DNA of 64,000 nt from contig JAPKMP010000007.1 in assembly GCA_026645935.1 (NCBI GenBank), forward strand, positions 1-64,000, written 5' to 3'. This stretch comes from Candidatus Villigracilaceae bacterium. GTDB taxonomy: Bacteria; Chloroflexota; Anaerolineae; Anaerolineales; Villigracilaceae. Positions 50,841 to 53,115 of the stretch are shown piece by piece (the first letter of the stretch is position 1; every line of letters starts with the position of its first letter). Under the pieces are notes generated by a model, which did not search any database, had not been told where the DNA came from, and worked only from the letters and a program-made list of their open reading frames with translations. A program made the translations under genes and the position numbers.

Positions 50841-50877
50841 AAAACAACCGCCATCGTAAAGTTGGCGGTTGTTTTTA
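50841..50877 (+). terminator. Intrinsic terminator of the TadE cluster
   Basis: AAAACAACCGCC (50841-50852) pairs with GGCGGTTGTTTT (50864-50875) around an 11-base loop and ends in TTTTT. The glmS -10 box begins four bases later. Confidence 0.9.
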
Positions 50878-50880
50878 CGG

Positions 50881-50886
50881 TATAAT
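50881..50886 (+). promoter_or_regulatory. -10 box of the glmS transcript
   Basis: TATAAT at 50881-50886 lies about 56 bases before the predicted ribozyme cleavage site. The -35 region coincides with the terminator stem and is weak (TTGGCG or TTGTTT at poor spacing). Confidence 0.5.
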
Positions 50887-50939
50887 TCCAGCCTCGAACA
50901 AGAAAGGAGCGAAATTAGTCACCTTAAACAAAGGGAAAG

Positions 50940-51185
50940 ACAGCGCATGGACCCCGCAACTCGCGGGGTTGACGAGGATGAAGGTTCTCCATTGCGAAAT
51001 GGAGTTAACCAAATTGCAGGTCTCGATACGGGCTTTTACCCAACACGACCCGCATTTTGGAAAAATCGAGAGATCAGCGGAAGCCTTCCGGGTCCGCCAC
51101 GACCCGCCCATCTTTCCCTCCAGATGAAACCCTGAGGATAAACCCTGCGGGCAACCGCGGTACAAAACCCAGGGCGCGGCAAAAA
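50940..51185 (+). ncRNA. glmS ribozyme/riboswitch with a structured insertion
   Basis: The self-cleaving RNA senses glucosamine-6-phosphate and cuts the glmS mRNA. Cleavage should fall between A50942 and G50943 in CAGCGCATGGAC, closely matching the known AGCGCCTGGAC. P1-type stem ACCCCGC/GCGGGGT (50951-50957, 50963-50969) is followed by the invariant GTTGACGAGG (50969-50978). The core continues as ATCGAGAGATCAGCGG (51065-51080) with GAAGG/CCTTC pairing. GGGTC/GACCC forms the next stem (51090-51105), and a P4-like stem with a GCAA loop ends near 51180. An 80-base insertion (50985-51062) interrupts the core where most members have a few bases. It folds into two hairpins. Confidence 0.88.
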
Positions 51186-51273
51186 TTCAAGACTGCGAAA
51201 CCGGCATATCGTCCAATGAATGAAGCGCCGGTTCGTCGGTCCACAAAATATCAAAATTGGAGGATCCCCTACC

Positions 51274-53115
51274 ATGTGTGGAATCGTAGGTTATATCGGT
51301 CCGCGTGAAGCGACACCGATCATTTTAAACGGCTTGAAACGGCTCGAGTACCGCGGCTATGACTCTGCAGGCATCGCCGTGATCAATGACAATCAGATCG
51401 ACATCCGCAGGGATGCGGGTAAATTACAGCAACTTGTGGACCTGGTAGGCAAATCGCCGCTCAATGGCGCCCCGGGAATCGGTCATACCCGCTGGGCGAC
51501 TCACGGCGCCCCCTCCGCCCGGAACGCGCATCCGCATATCAGCAACAGCGGCAGGATGGTCGTGGTGCATAACGGCATCGTGGAAAACTTTCTGGAGCTA
51601 AAGGACGACCTCGGCTCCGAGGGCGTGACCTTTCATTCGGAAACCGACACAGAAACGATCGTTCATCTCGCCGATTATCACAGGTCGGCCGGTTATTCGT
51701 TCGAGGAGGCGGCGAGGCGCACGTTCAAGCAAATCGAGGGCGCAAATGTGATCCTGCTGCTTTCAACAGACGAGCCGGACAAGATCATCGCCGCCCGCAT
51801 CGGAAACGCGGGGGGCGTCGTGGTAGGCTTGGGCGAAGCCGAGAATTTTCTCGCCTCAGACATACCCGCCATTTTGGAGCACACCCGGCGCATGATCTTT
51901 CTCGAGTCGCGCCAGATGGTGGTGGTGACCAAAGACAGCGTGCGGATCGAAACACTCGACGGAGAGGAAGTCAAGCCGGAGGTCCACACGATTGCGTTCG
52001 ACGCCGTCTCGGCAGAGAAAGGCGAGTACCGCCATTTCATGCAGAAGGAAATCCATGAACAGGTGCGCGCGTTGACCGATACCCTCGCCGGACGGGTGGA
52101 TTTCAAAGAGGGGCGCATCCGCCTGCCGGAACTGAACCTGACGCCGGAACTTGCCAAGCGCATCCAGCGGATTTACATCACCGCCTGCGGCACAGCCGCC
52201 TACGCAGGCATGGTTGGAAAATATCTGATCGAGAAGATCGCCCGCGTCCCTGTGGAAGTGGTGATCGGCTCGGAGTTTCGATACAGCGATCCCATCATCG
52301 ACGAGAACACGGTCGTGCTCGCCATTTCGCAATCCGGCGAGACGGCTGACACCCTTGCCGCCATGGAGGAGGGACGCCGCAAAGGCGGCATCATCTGGAG
52401 CATCGTCAATGCCATCGGCTCGCAAGCCATGCGCATTGCCGACGGTTACATTTCGATGCAGACCGGACCGGAGATCGGCGTGGCATCCACCAAGGCGTTC
52501 ACGGCTCCGCTGGTCGACCAGTACATGCTTGCCATCCTGCTCGCAGACATGCGCGGGATGCTCGAAGAGAAAACGCGCAAGGACCTTGTCGCGGACCTGC
52601 GCCTCGTCCCCGACCTCGTCGGGCGTGCGCTCGACACCGAGCCCGAGATCGAAAAAGTGGCCATGGCGCTCAAAGATATAAAAGGCTGCCTGTACCTGGG
52701 CAGGGGTATCAACATGCCAATCGCCTATGAAGGCGCGTTGAAGCTAAAGGAGATCTCGTACATCCATGCCGAGGGTTACCCTGCCGGTGAGATGAAGCAC
52801 GGTCCGATCGCCCTGATCGACGAGGAAATGCCCGTACTTTGCATCGCGCCGAAGGATCCCTGGCACGAAAAGATGATCTCGCAAATTCAACAGGCGAAAG
52901 CGCGCGGCGGCATGGTCGTGGCGGTCGCAACCGAAGGCGACGAGCTTGTAAAAAGCATGGCAGACCATGTGCTTTGGATTCCCGACGCGCCCTGGATGCT
53001 CTCGCCCGTGGCGACCGTGCTCCCGCTGCAGATGCTTGCCTATCACATCGCCGCCATCCGCGGTTTGGATGTGGACCAACCGAGAAATCTGGCAAAAAGT
53101 GTGACCGTGGAATAA
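51274..53115 (+). CDS. glmS: Glutamine--fructose-6-phosphate aminotransferase (isomerizing)
   Basis: The 613-residue enzyme starts as MCGIVGYIG, with the catalytic Cys at position 2 after Met removal. It has the glutamine amidotransferase domain (about 1-225, GHTRWATHGAPS) and two SIS sugar-isomerase domains (about 290-430 and 460-605; TACGTAAYAG, SQSGETADTLAAM). The C-terminal DQPRNLAKSVTVE is typical. It makes glucosamine-6-phosphate, the first step to UDP-GlcNAc for MurA and other envelope sugars. ATG 51274 follows GGAGGATCCCCTACC; the frame upstream lies in the ribozyme leader. Expression is under ribozyme control at 50940-51185. Confidence 0.97.
   Translation: MCGIVGYIGPREATPIILNGLKRLEYRGYDSAGIAVINDNQIDIRRDAGKLQQLVDLVGKSPLNGAPGIGHTRWATHGAPSARNAHPHISNSGRMVVVHNGIVENFLELKDDLGSEGVTFHSETDTETIVHLADYHRSAGYSFEEAARRTFKQIEGANVILLLSTDEPDKIIAARIGNAGGVVVGLGEAENFLASDIPAILEHTRRMIFLESRQMVVVTKDSVRIETLDGEEVKPEVHTIAFDAVSAEKGEYRHFMQKEIHEQVRALTDTLAGRVDFKEGRIRLPELNLTPELAKRIQRIYITACGTAAYAGMVGKYLIEKIARVPVEVVIGSEFRYSDPIIDENTVVLAISQSGETADTLAAMEEGRRKGGIIWSIVNAIGSQAMRIADGYISMQTGPEIGVASTKAFTAPLVDQYMLAILLADMRGMLEEKTRKDLVADLRLVPDLVGRALDTEPEIEKVAMALKDIKGCLYLGRGINMPIAYEGALKLKEISYIHAEGYPAGEMKHGPIALIDEEMPVLCIAPKDPWHEKMISQIQQAKARGGMVVAVATEGDELVKSMADHVLWIPDAPWMLSPVATVLPLQMLAYHIAAIRGLDVDQPRNLAKSVTVE

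Follow-up and report, generated by a model that had tools for sequence, protein, structure and literature searches.

A glmS-class ribozyme of Anaerolineae with an inserted core hairpin and a predicted leader helix reaching 5′ of the cleavage site

The glmS ribozyme serves as a model in the study of RNA catalysis and as a target for antibacterials; we know of no studied member of the class that uses anything 5′ of nucleotide –1. Such ribozymes are reportedly associated almost exclusively with glmS, and McCown, Roth and Breaker are said to have described, in 2011, Deinococcus-Thermus variants with extra core stems and a changed support domain. Extra core stems as such are therefore probably not new; the RNA reported here resembles those variants as they are reported to be, and the insertion site may or may not match. 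Within the papers covered by our literature search, we found no report of the leader helix described below (P0), of the present insertion, or of a glmS-class RNA at glnA. The class is represented by the Rfam model RF00234 and by crystal structures of the T. tengcongensis and B. anthracis RNAs. In a simulation study, the B. subtilis ribozyme treated as complete spans nt –1 to 159 (PMC11602151); since it ends at nt –1 on the 5′ side, the leader use described below is a departure.

The window, a stretch of 64,000 nucleotides from a Candidatus Villigracilaceae bacterium (Chloroflexota, Anaerolineales; contig JAPKMP010000007.1; all window features below are on its forward strand), had been examined in a sequence-only reading, which placed a glmS ribozyme just ahead of glmS. 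This held. The quoted elements CAGCGCATGGAC, GTTGACGAGG and ATCGAGAGATCAGCGG, together with A50942/G50943, are all found where that reading had put them; RF00234 matches 50931–51184 at 40.9 bits (cut-off 37, E = 3.8e-6); and the gene downstream encodes GlmS (TIGR01135, 763.7 bits), with the ribozyme in its 5′ UTR. The mechanical open reading frame opens at 51220. Because GlmS begins with MCGIVGY, which we take to be its N-terminal start, the gene was placed at 51274–53115.

The scissile context, P1, the predicted P2/P2.1/P2.2 core, P3/P3.1, P4 with its GNRA loop and the position ahead of glmS are common to the window RNA and the described ribozymes. The scissile bond A(–1)/G(+1) is predicted at 50942–50943, solely by homology. 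It is followed by the P2.2 5′ strand CGC (50944–50946, partner 51077–51079), the 7-bp P1 hairpin (50951–50969, from pairing and alignment), the P2.1 5′ strand CGA (50973–50975, partner 51066–51068) and, from the alignment, the P2 5′ strand GAAGG (50980–50984, partner 51084–51088). The core at 51066–51088 comprises the P2.1 3′ strand, the GCGG of P2.2 and the P2 3′ strand. Beyond it lie P3 (51089–51106), whose loop GCC (51096–51098) pairs with GGC at 51178–51180 as P3.1, and the P4 end hairpin with its GCAA loop, L4 (51145–51160). When 41 sequences were aligned, 91.5% of the cells of the whole structure were paired, as compared with 78.6% after shuffling, and double changes were seen in 256 cells versus 74. 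The P2.1 and P2.2 pairs of the presumed double-pseudoknot core are present in 41/41 sequences (100% paired) and invariant, hence without covariation either way; P3.1 shows double changes at three of its four pairs, with 81.5% of cells paired, and the window forms three of the four. We consider it confirmed that the window holds a real glmS-class ribozyme ahead of glmS, with self-cleavage predicted by homology.

Under strict filters RF00234 was a poor survey tool: it lost the window site and missed the window's own genome, and in a whole-genome search the site scored 33.7 bits, below the cut-off, with a match ending at 51136. For this reason we built two further models, R1 and R2. R1, a model of core plus insertion made from 37 relatives with the window sequence excluded, scored the window ribozyme at 110.5 bits (E = 8.2e-24, the E-values of R1 being rough). 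A plasmid collection searched with the ribozyme gave zero matches; when the plasmids were searched with the GlmS protein, a single Bacillota record was obtained as a comparison. A palindrome with a T-run separates the upstream gene from the leader (50842–50874) and is followed by TATAAT at 50881–50886, a possible –10 box of the leader promoter recognized by eye. These are likely a terminator and a promoter, although a local consensus scan reported neither.

That the ribozyme occurs outside Firmicutes, as first pointed out, is true but not itself new: RF00234 also matches Deinobacterium chartae and 135 of 400 sampled Chloroflexota genomes (E 0.01), as well as 76 of 100 genomes of the window's family (E 0.1). 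In the order R1 matched 214 of 251 genomes, in the phylum 108 of 400; many low-scoring phylum matches are 70–85 nt long, too short for the insertion, so that the latter figure is no insertion count. A motif pattern search, asking for GGTTC after P2 and not for a hairpin, gave at least 120 loci, and 78 of the 80 titled loci listed bear, on our reading, names of Chloroflexota members, Anaerolineales and others. Cultured strains among the matches listed are Bellilinea caldifistulae (Chloroflexota, Anaerolineaceae) and Levilinea saccharolytica, whose locus holds just the ribozyme start. Two loci filed as Paludibacter and Spirochaeta (L092 and L125) carry a Chloroflexota-type ribozyme start, attributable either to misbinned contigs or to transfer.

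The window RNA differs from the RF00234 ribozyme in having a hairpin (H1) and a second arm before the second strand of P2.1, and in having a leader helix, P0, and a strand complementary to the Shine-Dalgarno sequence. The insertion separates the P2 5′ strand from the P2.1 3′ strand, with an A-rich joint (51061–51065) immediately 5′ of the latter, which is part of the cofactor pocket (PMC7125110). Among readable loci, the insertion occurs in eight families within the window's class (f1, f2, f4, f8, f10, f12, f13 and f14) and also, outside that class, in f24, f25 (which includes a contig titled Chloroflexus), f61 and f64. It is absent, a few-nucleotide connector standing in its place, in the Chloroflexota families f17, f22, f39, f48, f56, f63, f78, f80 and f84 and in the Bacillota record L283 (Acetoanaerobium). 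Insertion-free Chloroflexota ribozymes (for example L193–L197, f56) share core and phylum with the window RNA, but have the short connector and no P0 of at least 7 pairs. Left out of the comparisons were 22 of 192 records that went unparsed in one sample, among them the window's own site (L001), deliberately left out, and 37 later loci unparsed by the strict core expression, one of which (L222) is an RNase J locus with no ribozyme. Judged by this distribution, the insertion is a clade-wide module, not peculiar to the window genome.

The structure proposed for the insertion, a 7-bp stem with a GCGA tetraloop followed by a second arm, was largely borne out. H1 is exact (50987–50993/50998–51004, loop 50994–50997) and on its own folds at –8.5 kcal/mol (z –4.7, 0/200 shuffles as good). 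The second arm (51009–51060) was said to be closed by CCAAATTGC/GCATTTTGG; it does fold (51008–51061: –18.4 kcal/mol, z –3.9, 1/200 shuffles as good), but the outer stem has a T·T mismatch and 8 of 9 pairs. For the whole insertion (50984–51066) the values were –26.9 kcal/mol, z –4.2 and 0/200. Since the hairpin and the second arm fold far better than shuffled sequence, the observation of a structured insertion in the core is confirmed.

Comparison across related genomes pointed the same way. Among 144 unique relatives (window included, two sampling routes), 119 have an H1 stem of exactly 7 bp, free of mismatches and capped by a 4-nt loop, and two more have one mismatch. In the 75 distinct 7/4 hairpins, six of the seven pairs change on both sides while 99–100% are paired, versus 62–81% with shuffled partners; the hairpin parser seeks stems and so favours pairing, but the 41-sequence alignment was not made that way, and there 98.6% of the H1 cells are paired and 6 of the 7 pairs show double changes. 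RNAalifold, run on this alignment, found H1 and the base of the second arm unaided, and the latter also covaries. The H1 loops are GCGA (54), GCAA (33), GCAG (14), GCGG (5) and rarer ones, some of them UUCG-like; 91 of 144 are strictly GNRA, as compared with 9 of 143 second-arm loops. Constant length and loop type suggest docking or a rigid cap. They fit the idea, put forward in the sequence-only reading, of a tetraloop making a new tertiary contact, although no receptor for the loop was identified on reading the alignments, and the UUCG-like loops of some relatives count against it.

The second arm behaves differently. The segment following H1 is anything between 5 and 151 nt long (median 39), and one relative (L015) has no second arm. 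By pattern matching, a TCGATAC-type palindrome was found in 10 of 144 relatives and a CCCTCACCCC-type repeat in 13. The window's arm holds GGTCTCGATACG at 51019–51030, and the pattern GGTYTCGATACG occurs at 20 places in the genome, mostly inside hairpins, as compared with 0 for the reversed pattern; the count is by pattern search, and some of the 20 are two halves of one palindrome. A REP-like palindrome, GGTYTCGATACG...CGACC, is thus seen at the window site and at 19 other genome places, and it recurs in ribozyme arms of several species. Such uptake of mobile or dispersed palindromes by the second arm speaks against a role in sensing. The suggestion that the insertion senses something else, although the insertion is structured and adjoins the cofactor strand, is consequently unsupported, and an additional sensor domain appears very improbable: the conserved loops and bulges seen by reading the sequences are limited to the H1 tetraloop and the YYAA and AAAA joints, and the second arm, hypervariable and replaceable by repeats, was rejected as a sensor.

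A feature overlooked in the sequence-only reading is more consequential than the insertion. The strand AGGGAAAGA (50932–50940), 5′ of the cleavage site, is perfectly complementary over 9 bp to TCTTTCCCT (51111–51119), both placed by pairing and alignment; the resulting helix, P0, would tie the leader that precedes the scissile bond to the strand following P3. In the architecture shared by Anaerolineae this complementarity extends over 7–9 bp. Among Anaerolineae-type sequences, at least 7 perfect P0 pairs were found in 80% of 159 own combinations versus 16.7% of 3180 swapped partners; the 159 include four Chloroflexus-like sequences, all misses, and L239 (family f24, outside the class), grouped there after its helix was seen. 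When leaders lacking GGGAAAG were taken, the corresponding figures were 60% of 73 and 4.0% of 1460. There are 45 different P0 helix strings of at least 6 pairs, some nested in one another, and the helix mostly ends 1–3 nt before A(–1). In the 41-sequence alignment, P0 shows double changes at 6 of 8 pairs with 79.6% of cells paired. None of the 16 sequences from f25, f61 and f64 has a P0 of at least 7 pairs, nor has any of the 24 insertion-free sequences, one of which reaches 6. On these comparisons we consider P0 real and all but restricted to Anaerolineae.

Folding programs were less favourable. RNAalifold did not predict P0 on the 41-sequence alignment; in an energy-based test over a wider stretch that took in P3, own and swapped partners of many leaders were hard to tell apart; and a pseudoknot-free model expects only about 3 P0 pairs in the uncleaved RNA of 99 relatives and hardly any P0 in the window. 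The missing RNAalifold prediction fits an alternative in which this is an ordinary glmS ribozyme, H1 and the second arm being inert and drift-tolerant and regulation, as in Bacillota, being left to cleavage and RNase J decay alone. The intact canonical core, the presence of RNase J and a second arm that is hypervariable or absent and made of repeats are also compatible with it. We nevertheless judge this account unlikely, because the length and loop type of H1 stay constant while its stem covaries, and because P0 pairing is much better between own than between swapped partners.

P0 might also contribute to the support domain. In 15 of the 138 relatives with a start codon found, the gene starts less than 140 nt from the P2.1 strand, leaving little room for P4 (16 were flagged, of which L077 proved by reading to be a false start). 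These include B. caldifistulae (L090), L149, L176, L183 and L097, and some of the 15 have another hairpin there. Since 13 of the 15 keep a P0 of at least 6 perfect pairs (L097 and L169 have 5), P0 may stand in for part of the support domain's function.

The 3′ strand of P0 overlaps a further element. CCTCCAG at 51117–51123, which shares 3 nt with P0, is complementary, with one G·T pair, to TTGGAGG at 51257–51263, the Shine-Dalgarno stretch of glmS. CCTCC after P3 and GGAGG before glmS were found together in 99 of 144 relatives, the other 45 being left out of the test (35 without CCTCC, 10 without GGAGG or a start codon). The two outer flanking bases covary, with 68% and 62% Watson-Crick pairs versus 54% and 40% expected (z 4.1 and 4.8, in a statistic that takes the relatives as they stand, relatedness left in). 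About one third of the 99 have no Watson-Crick pair at the first flanking base, nothing in register covaries beyond the two flanking bases, and one of 36 off-register cells reached z 3.8. P0 and CCTCC share at least 1 nt in 99 of 101 cases, and CCTCC is only partly used by P0. In the window, 51208–51217 is a second, local complement of the Shine-Dalgarno sequence (with 51256–51265, 9/10).

When the leader was removed in a partition-function model, which ignores pseudoknots and co-transcriptional order, the pairing of CCTCC with the Shine-Dalgarno sequence rose from 0.475 to 0.690 (n = 99) and access to the latter fell from 0.151 to 0.081. Changes above 0.2 were upward in 39 cases and downward in 6; the 19 sequences without CCTCC were modelled separately. 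The window's own pairing was 0.82 with and without the leader, i.e., no switch in the model. Having observed complementary strands that covary, we hypothesize a leader-release switch at glmS, which is plausible; the modelling is mixed, favouring it in the 99 relatives, neutral in the window and unfavourable in 17 glnA-type RNAs (below). P0 could instead act only in folding, as a clamp in place of, or in aid of, the P3.1/P4 support domain, the Shine-Dalgarno pairing being coincidental and CCTCC and GGAGG needed otherwise. This would agree with the short-P4-space relatives that keep P0 and with the unresponsive window model, and less well with a CCTCC not fully used by P0 yet co-present with GGAGG, or with the covarying flanking bases; we regard it as a serious possibility, if not the one we would expect. 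As for the fate of the message, a C. difficile study describes self-cleavage followed by degradation by RNases (PMC11477304). RNase J is present, so mRNA decay as in Bacillota is a possible outcome here too.

R1 also matched a second place in the window's own genome (C44:150328–150497, 53.2 bits). This paralogous glmS-like RNA (G000:C44:150306–150497, minus strand; L334:3807–3998) lies between a 6S RNA and an Ada-like gene, the order being 6S RNA, glmS-like RNA, Ada-like gene, EamA-like transporter (assigned by eye) and glnA. It has in common with the window ribozyme the core plan, H1, the second arm, P0 and a strand pairing downstream, but AGCG[GA]CTG replaces AGCGCATG and the RNA stands two genes ahead of glnA. 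Its P1 loop, too, holds a REP-like palindrome.

R2, a glnA-type model of 8 sequences with the own copy excluded, scored that copy at 132.4 bits and the window's glmS ribozyme at 66.6. At 80 bits or more, a cut chosen by eye, R2 matched 66 places in 63 of 151 genomes of the order; in a class sample of 199 genomes, the eight highest-scoring places all fall in the window's family, and the highest score outside it was 93.5 bits. The best 31 R2 places were taken, and 30 were obtained as loci. In 30/30 the core reads AGCG[GA]CTG, versus AGCGC in glmS copies; both strings also served as search expressions. A glutamine synthetase frame lies at most 0.8 kb downstream in 22 of the 30 loci (21 by motif, L383 by eye) and within about 0.45 kb in 20, and GlnA was confirmed in three (TIGR00653, 537–557 bits). 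Seven of the eight loci without a nearby glutamine synthetase belong to the window's family. A 6S RNA over the cut-off precedes the glnA-type RNA also in L341, L345, L347 and L353; none was found in the other loci searched, apart from a partial match in L342. The cultured species B. caldifistulae carries both copies (L090/L348 and L349), genome G194 being taken as this strain. For four relatives close to glnA, RF00234 gave 39.0 bits for L375 (over the cut-off of 37), 34.9 for L353, 31.8 for L361 and 23.7 for L349, and reported neither the own glnA-type copy nor ten other glnA-type loci searched. Two same-genus genomes (L335 and L336) have a glmS-like RNA whose 5′ part, cleavage site included, resembles an unrelated repeat while the remaining core is kept, perhaps a broken copy. 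In G479, G543 and G586 there are two glnA-type RNAs each (at least 80 bits), one of them (L373, in G479) with no glutamine synthetase nearby.

For the glnA-type RNAs, at least 5 P0 pairs were found in 97% of 29 own combinations versus 37% of 548 swapped, and at least 6 in 48% versus 17%; L373, which has no second core anchor, was dropped from the comparison. An intrinsic terminator follows in 22 of 29, with GGAAGGG ahead in all 22 and GCCC at the apex in 20 of 22, and it is present in 15 of the 22 loci with glnA nearby; these scan counts stand without a chance control. CCCTTCC/GGAAGGG ranks first among the downstream pairings in 16 of 29 (a hand count without swapped control). Upon leader removal its modelled probability went from 0.86 to 0.77 (n = 17), without a rise; such independence from the leader in the model disfavours a simple leader-release switch at this gene. 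Feedback inhibitors listed for the glutamine synthetase of enterobacteria include GlcN6P (PMC6316151), so GlcN6P control of glnA would make metabolic sense. A changed ligand for the glnA-type RNA is just as likely as control by GlcN6P.

Taken as a whole, we find it fairly probable, from sequence comparison, that the window RNA is a GlcN6P-dependent glmS-class ribozyme of an Anaerolineae architecture. H1 would be a scaffold holding the P2/P2.1 joint near the cofactor strand, perhaps through docking of its loop, and the second arm a tolerated spacer open to palindromic repeats. P0 would stabilize the fold and retain the 5′ product; once the leader is lost after cleavage, the freed strand would be favoured to pair with the Shine-Dalgarno sequence, which would add translational repression to mRNA decay by RNase J. 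A broader reading, in which Anaerolineales have two paralogous glmS-class ribozymes of one new design, strikes us as rather speculative and probably too bold. P0 would then hold the leader in both, and GlcN6P-driven cleavage would free the overlapping strand, which at glmS covers the Shine-Dalgarno sequence and at glnA, with a remodelled active-site strand AGCG[GA]CUG, pairs with GGAAGGG ahead of the GCCC-apex terminator; GlcN6P would thus also control the synthesis of glutamine synthetase, or else the glnA form would have a changed ligand.

Product release, religation and cleavage-coupled control of translation become testable in a large natural clade whose ribozyme would keep its 5′ product base-paired. 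Going by the literature found, a conserved glmS-like RNA at glnA would place the glmS class at a second gene, and this copy would link the amino-sugar level to glutamine synthesis.
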